From Marinactinospora thermotolerans DSM 45154 (lineage in GTDB: Bacteria > Actinomycetota > Actinomycetes > Streptosporangiales > Streptosporangiaceae), in assembly GCF_900167435.1 (NCBI RefSeq), contig NZ_FUWS01000005.1:220893-284892 (forward strand): a stretch of 64,000 nucleotides of DNA. The letters are read 5' to 3'. This document shows, piece by piece, positions 6 to 10,901 of the stretch; position 1 is the first letter of the stretch; each line of letters opens with the position of its first letter. The notes under the pieces are model-generated. The model saw nothing but the letters and a program-made list of their open reading frames with translations, was not told the origin of the DNA and did no database searches. The translations under genes and the position numbers were made by a program.

Positions 6-95
6 GGGGTCATCCCCGCGTGCGCGGGGAGCAGCTCGACGGTGTTCGTCATGGTGTCCTCCAGGTGGGGTCATCCCCGCGTGCGCGGGGAGCAG
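6..95 (-). CRISPR. Type I-E CRISPR array, leader-proximal end (array continues off the left edge)
   Basis: Two identical 29-nt repeats (6-34 and 67-95) stand 61 bp apart with one 32-nt spacer between them (35-66). The repeat contains the palindrome CCCCGCG-TGC-GCGGGG, which is typical of type I-E; on the minus strand it begins CTGCTCCCCGCGCACG, like the E. coli GTGTTCCCCGCGCC repeat. Orientation is therefore minus, with the leader to the right at 96 onward, and older repeats presumably lie left of the window. The same leader occurs at the second array at 3.6 kb. No cas gene is visible here, so interference would need Cas proteins encoded elsewhere. Confidence 0.9.
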
Positions 96-160
96 TCTTA
101 TTGACCTGGGACGTTATCAGCCGACCCCCTCGGATTCGACCACTTCTTAAGAAAAGGACG
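96..160 (-). promoter_or_regulatory. CRISPR leader, copy 1
   Basis: The bases directly right of the last repeat (TCTTATTGACCTGGGACGTT, then ATCAG) recur almost unchanged beside the second array at 3681. After a 16-nt unconserved stretch, a second shared block, CGACCACTTCTT, follows at the same distance in both places. Conservation at fixed spacing next to the first repeat is what is expected of a leader that carries the array promoter and the spacer-integration signals. The boundary on the right is a guess. Confidence 0.75.
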
Positions 161-1031: not shown

Positions 1032-2114
1032 TCACGCCGGTGTGATCCGCTGCCCTTCCGGGGTCACGGTGATGGTGTGGTCGCCGATCGCCGGCCTGCC
1101 CGCGGACTCCCACTCCGCGTGGGCGTTCTCCGCAGCGGCCCACAGGTCGCGTGTTCCGGCTGTCCGTACCCTCCCCTCCTCGGCGAGCGCCCAGGACCCG
1201 TCCGAGGTGAACAACAGCGTCCTCTGCCCCATGCGAACGAAGCCGATATCGGGCGCGGCCAGCCACAGGGCCCAGGCCATGTCGGGATCCCCGAGCACGG
1301 CGCCGTCGAGGTCGCTGACGCGGGTGATGGCGTCACGTAGGTCCATGGCGGGTGGAAAACGCCGGTTCGGGGTGGCGGCGTCCGAACGGGCGGGCATGAA
1401 ACAGCCCGGCTCCGCGTGACCGAAGTCGCCGCTCGCGGTGCCGTCGTCGTCAACGGTCAGCCGGGCGATGTGACCGATGTGGGTGTTGCCCACGGAGCGG
1501 ATATCCACCAGGATCACGCCGCCGGGCCTGGTCTGGGACACCCAGGTGTAGGGGACCCGCTCGACGGAGTGGGTCGCGATCACCCGGTCGTAAGGCGCTT
1601 CACCGGGGCATCCCTCGCGGCCGTCGGCGGCGACGAGGACGGGGTGGTGCCCTAGAAAGGCCAGGCGGCCACGGGCCGTCTCCACCAGCTCGGGGTCGAT
1701 GTCGACGGAGACCACGTGGCGGTCCCCGAGCCGGGCCCCCAGCAGGGCGGCGTTGTAGCCGGTACCGGTCCCGATCTCCAGTACGCGCATCCCGTCGGCG
1801 ACGTCCAGGGCCTCCAGCATCGACAGCATGAGGGAGGGGCGGCTGCTGGAGGAGGTGGGCCACCAGTTCTCGGGGTCGTCGGGATGGCGGCGTAACTGTG
1901 TGACCAGGGACTGGTCGGCGTAGACGCCCGGCAGCCACGCGGGGTCGTCGGAGCCGATCCAGGCGGGCGGGTTCCGTTCGTCGTGGAAACCGGGAACGAA
2001 AACGTGCCGGGGAACCGAGAGGAACGCTTCGCGCCACGCGGGATCGGCGGGCGCGATCTCATCGACCAAGGCGTCCAGCAAGGGCCGCCACCGTTCCTCA
2101 GGAATGTTCGTCAC
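1032..2114 (-). CDS. Protein-L-isoaspartate O-methyltransferase, RiPP (graspetide) type
   Basis: A 360-residue SAM-dependent methyltransferase. The PCMT fold is visible as YADQSLVT (65-72), the TSSSSRPSLM segment (87-97, equivalent to the SQP substrate loop), SAM motif I VLEIGTGTGYNAALL (111-125) and the ribose-binding acid in SVDID (136-140). Housekeeping PCMTs are about 210 residues. Here some 130-150 extra C-terminal residues follow, as in the RiPP-associated enzymes ThfM, AmdM, OlvSA and LihM, which methylate an Asp side chain so that it collapses to an aspartimide. GTG at 2114 is chosen over an upstream in-frame extension because it overlaps the stop of the ATP-grasp gene by 4 bp (GTGA), implying translational coupling. 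Predicted substrate: the graspetide made by the two preceding genes. Confidence 0.87.
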   Translation of the reverse strand: MTNIPEERWRPLLDALVDEIAPADPAWREAFLSVPRHVFVPGFHDERNPPAWIGSDDPAWLPGVYADQSLVTQLRRHPDDPENWWPTSSSSRPSLMLSMLEALDVADGMRVLEIGTGTGYNAALLGARLGDRHVVSVDIDPELVETARGRLAFLGHHPVLVAADGREGCPGEAPYDRVIATHSVERVPYTWVSQTRPGGVILVDIRSVGNTHIGHIARLTVDDDGTASGDFGHAEPGCFMPARSDAATPNRRFPPAMDLRDAITRVSDLDGAVLGDPDMAWALWLAAPDIGFVRMGQRTLLFTSDGSWALAEEGRVRTAGTRDLWAAAENAHAEWESAGRPAIGDHTITVTPEGQRITPA

Positions 2115-3091
2115 GGACTCTCCTCGGTCAGCGCGTCGGCGACCAGGGAGCTGATCGGCGCCCCCGTCTCCTCCTGAAGCCAGGCCCACTGCGCGCCGGG
2201 ACCACACTCCAGGAAGTACCAGCCGGCCTCGGTGGCACAGAAGTCGAACACTCCCAGTTCCAGTCCGAGCGCTCGTAGATAGGCGCGGCATCCGATGGTG
2301 ATGGGCTCGGGAACGTCCACCACCTCATAGACGAGATCCCCATAGCCCGTCCGGAAGTCCTGGTGTGCTTGTGGATCCCCGGCGTGGATCGCCACCGCGA
2401 TCTGGCCATGCCGAGTCGCGACCAGACGGACGTCGAACAGTTTCTTCGCGGCCAGGTTGGCTTGGAACTGATGCATCGTGATCCCAATCCGCTGGTTGAC
2501 GGACTCGGAATCGACGGGTGTGGTGTAGATCAGTCGAGCCTGGCCGTCGTCGGCGACCACCTTGTGCATGAGCGTCTTGTAGACGGCACCGCAGCCGACG
2601 TGATCCTGTTCCTCGGCGAACCGGCGGGCGGCCTTGGGATCGTTGGTCAACAGTGTCGGGAGGACCGGAAGTCCGCACCTGACAGCGGTAGCCAATTGCA
2701 ACGGCTTGTACTCGCCGTCAGCGACCCGTCCCGGCGCTCCGGGAACCCAGCGGGCAGGAAGGGCAGCGAACAGTCCGCCAAGACCGAACCGCGCCTCGAT
2801 CCGGGCGAATCGCTCCTCGGGCTCGCTCATCCCCGCGGGAAAGCCGAAAGGCCGAGGTCGCCGGTAGAAGACCGAAGTGACACCGATGAGATCGGCCTTT
2901 CCCTCCCTGGTCCGGACGCGGACACGCCACCCTGCGTTCTCCAGTTCCGCGGTGACCACGCATTCCATCGGAAAGGCCGCTGTATCGAAGGAGAGCACTG
3001 GAACTCCCCGTGCCGCCAGTCGCTCTCGGACGAGTTCTGCCTCCCCATCGTCTCGGGAGGCCAGAAACAGTACGAGCGCCGGGGATTCCAT
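2111..3091 (-). CDS. ATP-grasp ribosomal peptide maturase (graspetide ligase)
   Basis: A 326-residue ATP-grasp enzyme of the actinobacterial RiPP-maturase group (SAV_5884-like). These enzymes activate Asp/Glu side chains of a precursor peptide as acyl phosphates and close ester or amide rings with Thr/Ser/Lys. Visible features are the N-terminal Rossmann-like half with SVFYRRP (73-79), the segment DGEYKPLQLATAVRCGLPVL (125-144) ending in PTLLTN, the nucleotide-binding core with YKTLMHK (171-177), and the metal-site segment DFCATEAGWYFLECGPGAQW near residues 283-302. ATG at 3091 shares one base with the stop codon of the precursor (TGATG), and its own stop overlaps the methyltransferase start, so the three genes form one tightly coupled operon. 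Function is inferred from family and context. Confidence 0.9.
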   Translation of the reverse strand: MESPALVLFLASRDDGEAELVRERLAARGVPVLSFDTAAFPMECVVTAELENAGWRVRVRTREGKADLIGVTSVFYRRPRPFGFPAGMSEPEERFARIEARFGLGGLFAALPARWVPGAPGRVADGEYKPLQLATAVRCGLPVLPTLLTNDPKAARRFAEEQDHVGCGAVYKTLMHKVVADDGQARLIYTTPVDSESVNQRIGITMHQFQANLAAKKLFDVRLVATRHGQIAVAIHAGDPQAHQDFRTGYGDLVYEVVDVPEPITIGCRAYLRALGLELGVFDFCATEAGWYFLECGPGAQWAWLQEETGAPISSLVADALTEESP

Positions 3092-3342
3092 CAGTCCGTG
3101 ACGGTCTGGGTGTAGTCGTCCCTTTCAACCGCACCGTCCTTGGTGTACTCGGTGGGGACCTTCTCCGTCCGACTGGTCGTTGGTTTTTCATGTTTGCCTG
3201 CGAGATCGACCGGCCGAGGAACAACCGCTTGATCCATCCCCCATGGCCTCAATGAGGTCGGCGGGACATTTACCACAGGGACACGGTGGTCCGCCAGGCC
3301 CGCGGGGAACCGATCATGCGCAAGAGCGAGGGGGTCTTCCAC
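3091..3342 (-). CDS. Putative ATP-grasp-modified RiPP precursor (graspetide precursor)
   Basis: A small acidic peptide directly upstream of the ATP-grasp ligase, with TGATG overlap. It has a leader part containing RPWGMDQAV, matching the P(F/W)G(L/M) recognition motif of ATP-grasp precursors. Its C-terminal tail of about 35 residues is rich in Thr and acidic residues: KPTTSRTEKVPTEYTKDG followed by AVERDDYTQTVTD. Thr hydroxyls and Asp/Glu carboxylates are the ring partners in this family, and the single Asp-Gly is the likeliest aspartimide site. Start uncertain: the GTG at 3342 (83 codons) has a GAAAGG ribosome site 6 nt upstream; an ATG at 3372 and a GTG at 3402 are in-frame alternatives with poorer sites. 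Core boundaries and ring pattern are inference. Confidence 0.8.
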   Translation of the reverse strand: MEDPLALAHDRFPAGLADHRVPVVNVPPTSLRPWGMDQAVVPRPVDLAGKHEKPTTSRTEKVPTEYTKDGAVERDDYTQTVTD

Positions 3343-3402
3343 GATTCGCCTTTCACTGCTGGGGGCAAGCATCTTGTTCTTTACCCCGAAACTCCTGCTC
3401 AC

Positions 3403-3590
3403 ACCCCGTTCAGTCTCTGTGTGGCCGGTAGCGGGCAGTGGAAGAAATGATCACTGGCGGCGGTATACCGCATCTCTCAGTAGCTCTGACTTCTTCCCGC
3501 TCGGGGCTGGAGAACGCCCTAGCCTGTTCCCCCTCCTCTCTCGTACGGGACACGCACATCAGGTCTCCGAAGTCCGATGCGTTTTTCCTC
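3403..3590 (-). promoter_or_regulatory. Likely promoter region of the graspetide operon
   Basis: This stretch lies between the precursor and the second CRISPR array. It contains a perfect 12-bp palindrome GCGGTATACCGC (3460-3471) whose centre TATACC could serve as a -10 element for leftward transcription; no convincing -35 hexamer is visible 16-18 bp upstream. The palindrome could equally be a repressor site. No other structure is seen. Confidence 0.35.
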
Positions 3591-3680
3591 TGCTCCATCC
3601 CCGCGTGCGCGGGGAGCACTTGGGCCAAGCCGTACTTACGGGCGAGCTTCGGGGACCATCCCCGCGTGCGCGGGGAGCAC
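3591..3680 (-). CRISPR. Second type I-E CRISPR array: two repeats, one spacer
   Basis: Repeats at 3652-3680 and 3591-3619 have the same CCCCGCGTGCGCGGGG core and the same 61-bp period as the first array, with one 32-nt spacer (3620-3651). The left repeat differs in its first four bases (TGCT in place of GGGA), which on the minus strand is the 3' end; decay there is normal for the leader-distal terminal repeat. The array is thus complete and minimal. Its leader lies to the right (3681 onward) and matches that of the first array. Confidence 0.88.
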
Positions 3681-3745
3681 TCTTGTTGACCTGGGACGTT
3701 ACCAGGCGCTTCCTCTCTCCACGACCACTTCTTGAAATTCCGGCA
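3681..3745 (-). promoter_or_regulatory. CRISPR leader, copy 2
   Basis: Starts TCTTGTTGACCTGGGACGTT, then ACCAG, and has CGACCACTTCTT 16 nt further on, matching copy 1 at 96 in sequence and spacing. Similarity fades after about 45-60 bp, which defines the conserved leader core. The 3746-3910 stretch beyond it holds nothing recognisable before the deformylase promoter. Confidence 0.75.
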
Positions 3746-3910
3746 TAAACCCCATAGACAGCACAAGGCGACAAAGGGACATCCTCGCCTCCTGTCCCGC
3801 GCCCCGGATCGTCCGTCCCGTCCGTCTCGGCGCCTCTCCGTCGCCCCTCTTCTCCCGGCTTCCCGAGGTCATCCCCTCATAGGGCGGAATGCCCGCTCCC
3901 GGAGCGCGGC

Positions 3911-3923
3911 TAATCTTGCGGGC
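3911..3923 (+). promoter_or_regulatory. Possible -10 element for leaderless def transcription
   Basis: TAATCT (3911-3916) lies 7 nt before the ATG of the deformylase gene, and no ribosome binding site precedes that ATG. This spacing fits a transcript that begins at or near the start codon, a common arrangement in actinobacteria. No clear -35 is visible. Confidence 0.4.
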
Positions 3924-4478
3924 ATGACCATGCGGCCCATCGTGTACTTCGGCGACCCCGTTCTCGTCACCCCCACCACGCCCATCACCACGTTCGACCG
4001 GCACACCGAGGCGCTGGTGCGCGACCTGCTCGACACCGTGGACGCGCCCGGGCGCGCCGGGGTGGCGGCGACGCAGATCGGCGTGGGGCTGCGCGCGTTC
4101 AGCTACAACGTCGAGGGGAAGATCGGCTACGTCATCAACCCCGAGATCGTGGAGCTGTCCGAGGAGGTCCAGGAGGGTGACGAGGGCTGCCTGTCGGTGC
4201 CGCGCCTGTGGTATCCGACCCGGCGGGCCCAGCGCGCCGTGGTGCGCGGCGTGGACCTGCGCAACGAGCCGGTCACGGTGTCCGGCGAGGGGCTGATGGC
4301 CCGCTGCCTCCAGCATGAGACCGATCACCTCGACGGCATGCTCTACCTGGACCGCCTGGACCGCGACAACCGCCGCGCCGCGATGCGGGAGGTCCGCAAC
4401 TCCCCGTGGTTCCTGCGGGAGAAGCCCGAACCGGTCTCGCCGTCGAAGCTCCCCAGCGCGTTCGACGGAATCGGATGA
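3924..4478 (+). CDS. def: Peptide deformylase
   Basis: A 184-residue metalloenzyme that removes the formyl group from the N-terminal methionine of nascent proteins. All three family motifs are present: motif 1 as GRAGVAATQ (43-51, the usual GxGxAAxQ with Arg at the second position), motif 2 EGCLSVP (87-93, metal-binding Cys) and motif 3 QHETDHLDG (130-138, two metal His and catalytic Glu). ATG at 3924 is used; ATG at 3930 is equally in frame. The gene stands alone, with CRISPR array 2 upstream and a secreted protein downstream. Actinobacteria often have several deformylases, so this need not be the only copy. Confidence 0.95.
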   Translation: MTMRPIVYFGDPVLVTPTTPITTFDRHTEALVRDLLDTVDAPGRAGVAATQIGVGLRAFSYNVEGKIGYVINPEIVELSEEVQEGDEGCLSVPRLWYPTRRAQRAVVRGVDLRNEPVTVSGEGLMARCLQHETDHLDGMLYLDRLDRDNRRAAMREVRNSPWFLREKPEPVSPSKLPSAFDGIG

Positions 4479-4625
4479 TCCTCCCCATGTCACGACAAAC
4501 AACGACACCGACTAGGCAGATAACGGCACGATCTCGTAAGGTCTGCTGAAGCATCACGTGGCCCAGCGGAACCATTCGCCCCCCATCTCAGGGCGAGGCC
4601 ACAGGTCTGCCCACGGAGCACTCCA

Positions 4626-5630
4626 GTGACGAAACCCCTTGCATCACGCCCCTCTATGCCCACGCGCCGCCGCCGCGCGATGGTGTTCGCCGGCCTGGCC
4701 GCCGCGTTCGCCCTCGCCGTGCCCGCGCCCGCCTACGCCGACCCCGGGGACGAGGTCGACATCGAGGAGCTGAACGAGCGCGCCGAGAAGCTGGAGGAGG
4801 AGTACGACAGCGAACTCGTCCAGTACACCTCCGCCAAGGAGGGTGCCCAGAAGGCCCAGGACGACCTGGACGAGATCAACAAGCGGATGGAGGAGGCCCG
4901 CCAAGGCGTCTCCCAGATCGCCGCGAGCCAGTACAAGAGCAGCGGCCTCAACCCCACCATGGAGGTCGTGTTCAGCAGCTCCCCCGACGAGATGCTCGGC
5001 GACGCGGCTCTCGTCGACCACCTCGCCGACAGCAACGGTGAGCGCGTCCTCTCCCTCGCCGACCTGCAAGCTGAGGCCGAGAAGGCCAAGGAGAAGGCCG
5101 ACGGCAAGCTCAAGGAGGCCGAGGAGCTGATCGAGGACCTGGAGGAGCAGCGCGACGAGGTCCTGGACAAGATCGAGAAGTACGAGGCCGAGCAGACCCC
5201 CGAACCCGCCGAGACGGGTTCGTCCGGCGGCTCCGGCGACGGCACCGTCCCGGCGAGCGCGATCGGCCCCGGCTGGGACGGCGCGACGCCGCGCATGGCG
5301 GCGATCCGCGACGAGATCGTCCGCGAGTTCGGCGCCCCCTTCCCGGTCGGCTGTCTGCGGCCCGGCGACCCGGGCGAGCACGGCTCCGGCCGCGCCTGCG
5401 ACTTCATGATGAGCGCCAACGGCGGCATGCCCTCGGCGGCCAACCAGCAGCTCGGCACGCAGATCGCCGAGTACGCGAAGAACAACGCCGACCGCCTGGG
5501 CGTCATGTACGTCATCTGGGAGCAGCGCATCTGGGACTCCCGCAACCCCGGCGCCGGCTGGAAGCCGATGGAGGACCGCGGCAGCATCACCCAGAACCAC
5601 TACGACCACGTGCACGTCTCGTCGTACTGA
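4626..5630 (+). CDS. Secreted coiled-coil protein with ARB-07466-like C-terminal domain
   Basis: A 334-residue exported protein. A twin-basic N-terminus (TRRRRA, 13-18) and hydrophobic segment end in a Sec signal site near APAYADP (residues 34-40). Residues about 45-195 form a long Glu/Lys/Ala-rich coiled coil, as in NlpC/P60-associated wall proteins. A short Gly/Ser linker leads to a C-terminal domain with VGCLRPGDPGEHGSGRACDF and the closing HYDHVHVS. Those His and Asp residues resemble the metal site of the ARB-07466-like family, which is distantly related to peptidoglycan carboxypeptidases. GTG at 4626 has a GGAG site 7 nt upstream. A role in cell-wall remodelling is inference; hydrolase activity is not certain. 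Confidence 0.8.
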   Translation: MTKPLASRPSMPTRRRRAMVFAGLAAAFALAVPAPAYADPGDEVDIEELNERAEKLEEEYDSELVQYTSAKEGAQKAQDDLDEINKRMEEARQGVSQIAASQYKSSGLNPTMEVVFSSSPDEMLGDAALVDHLADSNGERVLSLADLQAEAEKAKEKADGKLKEAEELIEDLEEQRDEVLDKIEKYEAEQTPEPAETGSSGGSGDGTVPASAIGPGWDGATPRMAAIRDEIVREFGAPFPVGCLRPGDPGEHGSGRACDFMMSANGGMPSAANQQLGTQIAEYAKNNADRLGVMYVIWEQRIWDSRNPGAGWKPMEDRGSITQNHYDHVHVSSY

Positions 5631-5645
5631 CGGGCACGCGACCGG

Positions 5646-5674
5646 GGACGGGGACGCCGGCGGCGTCCCCGTCC
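5646..5674 (+). terminator. Hairpin terminator after the coiled-coil protein gene
   Basis: The arms GGACGGGGACGCC (5646-5658) and GGCGTCCCCGTCC (5662-5674) pair perfectly over 13 bp with a 3-nt loop, 15 bp after the stop codon. There is no T-run, which is usual for GC-rich actinobacterial terminators. The following 200 bp up to 5882 hold nothing recognisable. Confidence 0.7.
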
Positions 5675-5882
5675 GTCGTGTCCGGCCCGCCCCGCAGACC
5701 GGGGTCAGGCGGGCCGGCACCGGAGGGCGGTCGTCCTCCCCCGCGGCCTCGCACCCGCCGTCCCGGCGCTTGACGCTCCTCGGCGCCGTCCCCGCACAGG
5801 CCGTTCCGTGGGATCGCGCGCCGCTCTCACGAGACCGGCCCGACCTGCCGGTACACCGGGCACCGGCGCGTCGCCGCCTCGC

Positions 5883-6531
5883 TCAGGACGACCACCAGAT
5901 CAGCAGGTCGCCCGAGTAGACGACCACGAACGCGACGGCCGTCACCGCCGCGACGGCCACCGCAGCCAGGATCGACCGCGCGTCGCGGAAGCGCCACGCG
6001 CACCCCCACGCCAGCAGGGCCGACCCCGCGGCGATCGACCCCGCCCAGTAGGCCCCCGAGGTGGTCGCCAGGATGTACAGCAGCCCGTAGGCGCCCTCAC
6101 CGACGAGCACCCCGCTCAGCAGGCCGACGCCGTAGGGGGCGAAGGCCGTCCGGAACCGCAGGGCGTGGGCCGTCACCCCCCAGGAAGGGGCCGACGACGA
6201 CGGCCGCCGTCACCCAGAAGAGCGTCACACCGGCCGAGACGGAAAAGCCGCGCAGGACCGAGGCCAGGTCGTAACCGGCCATCATGGCCGCCAACGCCAG
6301 GACGCCCGCGACGACCGCGGCCCACCGCCGTGGCGCGAGCAGCGCCAGCAGGAGCGCCGCCACGCTCCAGGAGCCGGCCGAGTTGGCCAGGGAGTTCAGG
6401 GCCGATGGCAGCCATCCCTGCCCGAACGAGGTCAGGACGCCGATCGCCAGGCCCCCGACGACGGCCGGGGCGAGGGCGGCGACGGAGGCGAGGGGGGAGG
6501 CGGCCGGTGGCGCCGTCGTGCTGGTGGTCAT
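5883..6531 (-). pseudogene. DUF6518 family membrane protein, interrupted by a frameshift
   Basis: The N-terminal frame (6531 to about 6175) begins at an ATG with a GAGGAGAGG site. It encodes the typical DUF6518 start: AIGVLTSFGQGWLPSALNSL, then NSAG and three membrane segments, down to VVVGPFLGG. The C-terminal half of the family, with VTAHALRFRTAFAPYGVGLL and two more membrane helices, continues in another frame (6176 to 5883). The break falls in a run of six C (6176-6181, plus strand); removing one base restores one frame of about 215 codons, close to the family length. Either the gene is recently inactivated or there is a homopolymer sequencing error. DUF6518 proteins are integral membrane proteins of unknown role. 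Confidence 0.75.
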
Positions 6532-6902
6532 GCCTCTCCTCACGAGGGGCCGGTGGCCGCGCGGAGTCTCAAGGACGATCCTGCCCGATCCGGTCCGGGG
6601 AGGCGATCCGCGGCGCCGGCGACCGGAAGGGCCGCGACGGCGCCGCGAGGCCGCCCGTCCGGTGGGCGGCCCCCTGGTGACCGTTTCCGGTCACGGACCG
6701 CGCGTCCCCGGTCCCGGGACGGCGGAGGTGGCGGCGCCGGCCGCCCGCAAGCCGCAGGCCAGCGGCGCGGCGGGACGCCGCGTCCACGTTGAGGCCCGGA
6801 GTTTCGGGCCTCGCCGAATCGCCGCGGAACGTCTCGTCCCGGCCGCGCGATCCGCGTAGCGTGCCCTCCGCCCCGTGCCACACGAGTCAGCAGGAGAACC
6901 AC

Positions 6903-7883
6903 GTGCGTCCCTCACCCCGCCGCGATGGCGAGGCCGGTCTGGTCTCCCGGCGCGGCTTCGGCCGGCTCGCCGCCTTCGGGCTCGCGGCCGGCGCCGACCT
7001 GGTCGGTCCCGCCCCCGCCGCGAGCGCGGCGGCCGACGGACAGGACTACTACGAGCGCGCCCGCGCGCTGGCCGGGGACGATCCGGTCCTGCGGGCCCTC
7101 GCCTCGGCGCTGGCCCCCGACGTCACCTTCCCCGACGTGCCCGCGCCGGCGCCGCTGCTGCTGTTCGACGATCTCGCCCTGGTGAGCGTGGGCTTCGTGC
7201 ACGCCATGGCGCTCCTCACCGACGACGGGATCGTGCTGTTCGACGCGCTCCGCTCCCCCGAGGACGCCGAGGACGTCATCGTCCCGGGGCTGCGCGAGCT
7301 GGGCGCCGATCCCGCGGCGATCAGGTACGTCGTCATCACCCACGGGCACTACGACCACTTCGGGGGCGCCCAGTACCTCGCGGACCGCTATGGGGCCCGC
7401 GTCCTGATGTCGCCGGCCGACTGGGATCTCGTCGCCGGCTCCCGGCCGGACAACGCCCCCGTCCGGGATCTGGAGATCGCGGACGGGCAGCGGCTCACGC
7501 TCGGCGGCACGACGGTCCGCTTCCACCACACCCCGGGTCACACCCCCGGCACGGTCTCGCCGATCTTCCCCGTGCGGGCCGGCTCCGATCGGCACACGGC
7601 CATGTTGTGGGGCGGCACCAACCCGCCCGGCACGCTGCCGGAGCTGCGCGACTACCTGGCCTCCATCGCCTCCTTCCGCGGCCGGATGCGGGAGGCGGGG
7701 GTGGACGTCGAACTGTCCAACCACCCCAACGACTACGGGCTGCAACGCGCCGAGCAGCTGAGGGAGCGGCCCGACGGGGCGAACCCCTTCGTGCTGGGCC
7801 GGCACCGCGCCGACCGGTACATGGCGGTCATGGACCTCATGCTGCGCGGGAGGATCGCCGACGCCGAGGCCGCCGGCGGCTGA
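6903..7883 (+). CDS. Tat-exported MBL-fold metallo-hydrolase (subclass B3-like)
   Basis: A 326-residue protein. The N-terminus carries a twin-arginine motif SRRGFGRLAAFGLAAGADL followed by Ala-rich sequence (cleavage near ASAAAD), so it should be exported folded by the Tat pathway. The metallo-beta-lactamase site is complete: HGHYDHFGG, the TPGHTPGTVS loop and SNHPND near the C-terminus, giving a binuclear zinc centre of the B3 layout. This layout also occurs in many non-lactamase hydrolases, so substrate is unknown. GTG at 6903 is chosen for its AGGAG site (6892-6896) and because the Tat motif starts soon after; a longer frame upstream from 6789 lacks these. It stands alone between a membrane gene and a convergent MFS gene. 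Confidence 0.85.
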   Translation: MRPSPRRDGEAGLVSRRGFGRLAAFGLAAGADLVGPAPAASAAADGQDYYERARALAGDDPVLRALASALAPDVTFPDVPAPAPLLLFDDLALVSVGFVHAMALLTDDGIVLFDALRSPEDAEDVIVPGLRELGADPAAIRYVVITHGHYDHFGGAQYLADRYGARVLMSPADWDLVAGSRPDNAPVRDLEIADGQRLTLGGTTVRFHHTPGHTPGTVSPIFPVRAGSDRHTAMLWGGTNPPGTLPELRDYLASIASFRGRMREAGVDVELSNHPNDYGLQRAEQLRERPDGANPFVLGRHRADRYMAVMDLMLRGRIADAEAAGG

Positions 7884-10259: not shown

Positions 10260-10372
10260 CCCGTTTCCGGGGTCAGGGGGGTGGGCCGGTGATCGGGCGT
10301 GGTGCGGGCCCCACCGGTCCGGGCGCGCGGGCCGGTGGCCGGTGGCCGGGAGCGGCACCGGGGTTCATCGGC

Positions 10373-10901
10373 GTGCCCGGTCGCGCGGCCTTGGGCGGGC
10401 GGTCGCGTCCGGACTTCTTGGAGCCGGCCCGGACGTGGCGTCTCCACGTCGGCCCGGCGGGGCCGGTTTCACGACGCCCGCCCGGTGTCCGCGCGACTCA
10501 GCAAGGCGGCGGGCCGGCCATGGCCAGTGAACCGGGAGGCCGAACACCCCGATAGGCCGCGGCCGATCCCTCCACCGGAGGACGCCTGATCCCGCCTCCC
10601 CACCGGCGTCTCCCCGGACGGGCGCCGCGCCCGCCGCGTGCCCGGTCGCGCGGCCTTGGGCGGGCGGTCGCGTCCGGGCTCCTTGGAGCCGGTCGGGGCG
10701 CGGCGTCTCCACGTCGGCCCGGCGGGGCCGGTTTCACGACGCCCGCCCGGTGTCCGCGCCGCTCACCGAGGCGGCGGGCCGGCCATGGCCAGTGAACCGG
10801 GAGGCCGAACACCCCGATAGGCCGCGGCCGGCCCCTCCACCGGAGGACGCCTGATCCCGCCTCCCCACCGGCGTCTCCCCGGACGGGCGCCGCGCCCGCC
10901 G
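10373..10901. repeat. 265-bp tandem duplication (two copies)
   Basis: The segment starting GTGCCCGGTCGCGCGG at 10373 is repeated head-to-tail starting at 10638. By eye the copies differ at about a dozen positions (roughly 95 percent identity), clustered near the second tenth and the middle of the unit. Copy 1 is 10373-10637 and copy 2 is 10638 to about 10901, ending 7 bp before the stop of the TetR gene. Each copy contains inverted segments (for example GGCGTCTCCACG.., GGCCCGGCGGGGCC) and an 11-codon reading frame from ATGGCCAGTGAACC. No transposase, IS ends or target duplication is visible. Confidence 0.85.

Follow-up and report, generated by a model that had tools for sequence, protein, structure and literature searches.

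A putative graspimiditide cluster of a small side-branch in Marinactinospora thermotolerans

Some 1000 to 1400 clusters for graspimiditides, the group 13 graspetides, are known, yet just four of their products have been made so far (PMC13001092). In these four characterised members the aspartimide is located on the Asp of the loop, and a WXXXGXP motif has been reported for the PIMTs of graspimiditides, lassimiditides and imiditides (PMC13001092). The rings of fuscimiditide are T7–D18 and T3–D22 (PMC12291112), and its genes are ordered thfA–thfB–thfM. Amycolimiditide, albusimiditide and SsfA, likewise of group 13, are each produced from a precursor by an ATP-grasp ligase and a PIMT, and form stem-loops with a methylated Asp in the loop (PMC13001092); they are reported with up to four or five esters, and are set beside the present locus by description only.

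The same three components are encoded in the 64,000-nucleotide stretch of the M. thermotolerans DSM 45154 genome (contig NZ_FUWS01000005.1) analysed here, referred to below as the window. Three overlapping minus-strand open reading frames, arranged head to tail between positions 1032 and 3402, encode a precursor peptide, an ATP-grasp ligase (tgmB or graspetide synthetase; 326 aa, 2111–3091) and a PIMT-type O-methyltransferase with a C-terminal domain (tgmC; 360 aa, 1032–2114). At the first junction (TGATG, around 3091) the ligase start codon overlaps the precursor stop; the ligase and methyltransferase frames meet at GTGA (2111–2114). A preliminary description of this DNA had recognised the trio and both overlaps, a small Thr/Asp/Glu-rich peptide before the ligase, and no adjacent transporter or protease gene, and these observations hold, with the Thr/Asp-rich precursor on the minus strand. 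It had also proposed a new aspartimide-bearing graspetide, a proposal supported by the family matches, leader motif and loop spacing described below. Judged from sequence, the trio would be a graspimiditide cluster whose product contains two nested Thr–Asp esters and a loop aspartimide, a reading to which we assign a probability of roughly 0.88.

For the precursor, GTG 3342 is the probable start codon (83 aa, 3091–3342, minus strand; MEDPLALAHDRFPAGLADHRVPVVNVPPTSLRPWGMDQAVVPRPVDLAGKHEKPTTSRTEKVPTEYTKDGAVERDDYTQTVTD) instead of GTG 3402 (103 aa), because homologues begin there and GAAAGG is located six bases upstream (start-codon context GAAAGGCGAATCGTG). All 15 precursor homologues found in other genomes start approximately 20 residues after the 3402 position chosen previously, and the 20 extra residues of that longer form are absent from them. 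The leader contains the motifs DRFP..GL and RPWGM. Column counts over the 16 precursors define the predicted core TTSRTEKVPTEYTKDGAVERDDYTQTVTD (3091–3180 with the stop codon, minus strand), in which T0, T9, D20 and the C-terminal D28 are invariant in 16 of 16. T9 and D20 are 11 residues apart in every case, corresponding to a 10-residue loop, and position 14 within it is Asp in 15 of the 16 precursors, followed by Ser, Gly or Asn; one precursor (L074) is without the loop Asp, yet its cluster retains the methyltransferase. Near-invariant Thr residues are also found 2, 4 and 6 residues before the C-terminus. As Thr makes up 29% of the cores in this branch, conserved Thr alone is weak evidence. 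Adjacent to the ligase gene there is thus a precursor with a leader and a conserved Thr/Asp core, as in graspetides, and D14 would lie within the loop of the innermost ring, as in group 13, if T9 and D20 are joined as predicted.

NCBI's precursor model, TIGR04186, matches none of 15 branch precursors (that of the window and 14 relatives), whereas ThfA, the fuscimiditide precursor, clears the cut-off of 25 with 57.9 bits. The window precursor has no family match in searches of the NCBI family or Pfam models, and the earlier suggestion that the cluster has a core sequence of its own agrees with these results.

The best family for the ligase is TIGR04187 (E = 2.2e-89, 299.8 bits; curated cut-off 350) and for the methyltransferase TIGR04188 (E = 1.3e-104, 350.5 bits; curated cut-off 380), both scores lying under the curated cut-offs for NCBI tgmABC membership. 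Pfam places an MvdD pre-ATP-grasp domain in the ligase above cut-off, and the ligase profile matches six distinct solved sequences (7m4s AMdnB, 9bou, 5ig8, 5ig9, 7mgv CdnC and 7drm), with solved graspetide ligases matched at E = 1e-54 to 3e-19. On this evidence the cluster encodes its own ATP-grasp ligase, a member of the graspetide synthetase family.

In the methyltransferase, the PCMT domain covers residues 88–211 of 360 (Pfam), so that the long C-terminal extension noted in the preliminary description is real. The enzyme carries the SAM motif EIGTGTGYN, and the segment WESAGRP (residues 335–341) fits WXXXGXP, with W335, G339 and P341 conserved in the alignment; a PIMT homologue with a C-terminal domain and this motif is what group 13 clusters contain. 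All best matches to the predicted structure (pLDDT 83) are L-isoaspartyl methyltransferases, with Z about 25. Among the leading matches only 1dl5, the PIMT of T. maritima, which also has a C-terminal domain, spans nearly the full length, aligning with model residues 12–360. Ligase and methyltransferase trees recover the same 12-member clade (support 100/100 and 100/99, respectively), outside which ThfB, ThfM and the other graspetide enzymes of the family fall, suggesting that the two enzymes have been co-inherited. The PCMT domain and the fold would also suit an ordinary protein-repair PIMT (Pcm) placed beside a peptide cluster by accident, but such an enzyme would be expected to match a repair model best and to be without the RiPP C-terminal domain. 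Here the best family is TIGR04188 and not a repair PIMT model, the WXXXGXP C-terminal domain is present and the gene appears to travel with the ligase, all of which make the repair enzyme a highly improbable reading.

For this cluster we infer the following chemistry, with its timing, its ring number and pairing, and whatever function the product may have. The ligase would bind the leader at the RPWGM region, phosphorylate the side chains of D20 and D28, and join both to upstream Thr residues. The simplest pairing would combine an inner T9–D20 ring, enclosing the 10-residue loop, with an outer T0–D28 ring, so that the peptide forms a stem-loop with two rings; of the two pairings the outer is uncertain, because its 8/7 stem is longer and less symmetric than the 3/3 stem of fuscimiditide. 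A cluster of the same kind could instead form three or more esters, through D21, E18 or the C-terminal carboxylate, or pair its Thr residues otherwise. The core does hold E18 and D21 besides D20 and D28, the Thr residues near its C-terminus are conserved as described, and esters number four in amycolimiditide and probably five in SsfA, where one involves the C-terminus (PMC13001092). We nevertheless consider this unlikely, as D20 and D28 are the only such acids common to all 16 precursors and beyond the loop the core at locus L075 contains no further acid.

In the preferred two-ester product, the methyltransferase would act only once the peptide has been cyclised, methylating the loop residue D14, whose next residue is Gly; collapse of this ester would then yield an aspartimide, assigned to the loop Asp by analogy with the characterised graspimiditides. 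The expected mass shift would be −18 Da per ester and −18 Da for the aspartimide, about −54 Da in total, and leader removal and export would depend on proteins encoded elsewhere. The end product may alternatively be the isoaspartate form, with the methyltransferase serving Asp-to-isoAsp conversion and not a stable aspartimide. SsfA and some pamtides have been isolated as isoAsp, and isoAsp is also the main hydrolysis product of the fuscimiditide and amycolimiditide aspartimides (PMC13001092, PMC10787088); with three of the four characterised graspimiditides purified as aspartimides (PMC13001092), however, this outcome is possible but doubtful.

Among 299 genomes belonging to the same family, 12 strong precursor homologues were detected; in 11 cases a ligase homologue comes immediately after the precursor gene, and a methyltransferase gene after that. 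Named genomes were scanned as well and contributed identically ordered loci in Actinomadura syzygii and A. rubrisoli, the A. rubrisoli ligase match being split into two overlapping segments. The trio is thus found in the same order at 13 actinobacterial loci besides the window, in Thermobifida, Nocardiopsis, Actinomadura, Sinosporangium, Streptosporangium and one further genus, and the precursor homologues beside other ligase/PCMT pairs on which the preliminary proposal depended do exist. Since in a dozen other genomes the gene directly 5′ of a homologous ligase encodes a precursor homologue (E = 1e-16 to 6e-28), the cluster is not a chance arrangement. Ligases of this general type occur in 154 of the 299 family genomes at E = 1e-20. 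Across 395 genomes of the class, all precursor matches of full length came from the same family; a wider spread was considered and rejected, one weak leader-only match being all that lies beyond the family. The window's own genus is represented by one genome in the set searched. From these sequence comparisons, the cluster very probably belongs to a small side-branch of the known graspimiditides, with precursors that the current annotation model misses.

Murinocardiopsis flavida (L104 9567–10375) and A. roseirufa (L105 9855–10435) retain part of a precursor and remains of a ligase, with no methyltransferase nearby, and look like decayed relatives. In one genome (G128, L139), a Gly/Lys/Asp-rich peptide and a PIMT (3428–4860), a probable imiditide pair, are located directly upstream of the graspimiditide cluster (5131–7480), the precursor of which has NNGG in place of the loop Asp.

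Convergent with the methyltransferase gene, and ending 8 bp from it, is a plus-strand gene for a DUF6624 protein (512–1024, 170 aa; PF20329, E = 1e-18), absent from the preliminary description. All three Thermobifida carriers have DUF6624 in the same place and orientation, 64–65% identical to the window copy and as the single copy of each genome. DUF6624 is present in 60 of the 299 family genomes, and lies beside a ligase in at least five (the window, the three Thermobifida and G056; positions compared by eye). In G056 (L136 5874–8041) it is directly 3′ of a graspetide ligase, no PIMT being present and the frame upstream of the ligase appearing acetyltransferase-like by eye. A 2026 survey lists DUF6624 as frequent in graspetide groups 18, 20, 23 and 42 and as a possible biosynthetic enzyme, group 13 not being named (PMC13097080).

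These placements, together with the frequency in other graspetide groups, raise the tentative possibility of a four-part system, in which DUF6624 acts on the modified peptide in tailoring, processing or self-protection. Against this, the gene is on the opposite strand and therefore outside the operon, it was not found beside the remaining trio carriers, and most DUF6624 genes of the family are away from the ligase matches listed. The four adjacent cases may moreover reflect one ancestral event; in the DUF6624 tree the window copy groups weakly with those of Thermobifida (81/58). A structure model of DUF6624 based on two sequences reached pLDDT 58, a quality insufficient for proposing a fold or for a fold search. 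That the branch is a four-component variant with DUF6624, and with a product whose stem ring is about twice that of fuscimiditide, seems unlikely; the gene next to the trio nevertheless offers, in three Thermobifida genomes, a compact system for learning its role in graspetides.

Unusually, the cluster sits between two type I-E CRISPR mini-arrays of two repeats each, which the preliminary description had not recorded (arrays 6–95 and 3591–3680). The first is an array end, type I-E-like (6–123, plus strand), with two repeats and one spacer in the window and a leader-like sequence to its right; the second (3591–3708, plus strand) also has two repeats, one spacer and a leader-like sequence, the 57 nt common to both leaders being 89% identical. 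Insertion of the cassette inside a single array is not supported, because each flanking array has its own leader-like sequence. The two flanking spacers gave no exact 22-nt protospacer match in viral contigs. About 1–10 kb away, open reading frames sized and ordered like those of a type I-E cas operon (C16 210983–220157) form a putative operon of this kind, judged from length, order and position. Genome-wide, about 145 I-E-type repeats are dispersed in roughly 28 short arrays scattered among ordinary genes (for example, C16 197064–224571), with two repeat/leader types: GGGGAGCA with TCTTRTTGACCTGGGACGTTACCAG, and GGGGCTTA or CTCA with AGAAGATGACCTGCGGCTTT. Elsewhere in the window is a tandem duplication (10371–10900; 265 bp, 95% identical).

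Five of the seven PIMT-like genes of the genome lie within about 0.9 kb of a CRISPR array (C8 213–1385 and 2829–3995, C18 1255–2379, C22 500141–501319, and this cluster at C16 221.9–224.3 kb), and the two on C33 and C34 have no array near. As 28 arrays can have no more than one or two percent of genes as neighbours, this exceeds chance, for a count that was noticed after the fact, takes C8 twice and includes the ends of C22 and C18, which seem to be neighbours. A conserved link between cluster and CRISPR was rejected, no relative showing it: no I-E array was found near the 12 named ligase relatives or in 29 ligase loci, and one in 30 imiditide-type methyltransferase loci has such an array, that of this same genome, the short repeat at L148 not being of I-E type. 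Most simply, the arrays and the peptide cassettes would occupy the same variable regions of this genome.

A small precursor overlaps the methyltransferase start at the first C8 locus and at the C18 locus, which look like imiditide clusters. Imiditides and type I pamtides, of which these two are probable examples in the same genome, share with the window cluster a PIMT with a C-terminal domain but have no ATP-grasp ligase, the aspartimide being their only modification (PMC13001092). Closer to the window are Thermobifida cellulosilytica (L094) and two further Thermobifida loci (L137, L138), which belong to the same branch with the same order and orientation and are 60–63% (ligase), 67–69% (methyltransferase) and 58–60% (precursor) identical to it. 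Their cores differ from that of the window at several positions, no CRISPR arrays occur in the 10 kb flanks of L094, and no characterisation of the three loci was found in the literature.

The fuscimiditide genes, located through the core TMRVT...SDVEKD in genome G040 (L050), taken as Thermobifida fusca, belong to the same family set in which relatives of the window were searched. Both clusters share the gene trio and its order, the leader motif RP[W/F]GM, an inner loop of 10 residues (T9–D20 in the window, T7–D18 in fuscimiditide; PMC12291112), Asp-Gly in the loop and Asp as last residue, and a comparison of profiles shows a weak but significant similarity of the leader to that of ThfA (E = 5.6e-5, 35 columns). 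Their ligases are in separate clades and about 41% identical, and their methyltransferases about 40%. The stems differ, with 8/7 residues in the window, if T0 pairs with D28, against 3/3 in fuscimiditide, and the loop Asp occupies position 5 of the loop in the window and position 3 in fuscimiditide. The branch retains the 10-residue loop of fuscimiditide with an altered stem, and thereby tests what a graspetide ligase measures.
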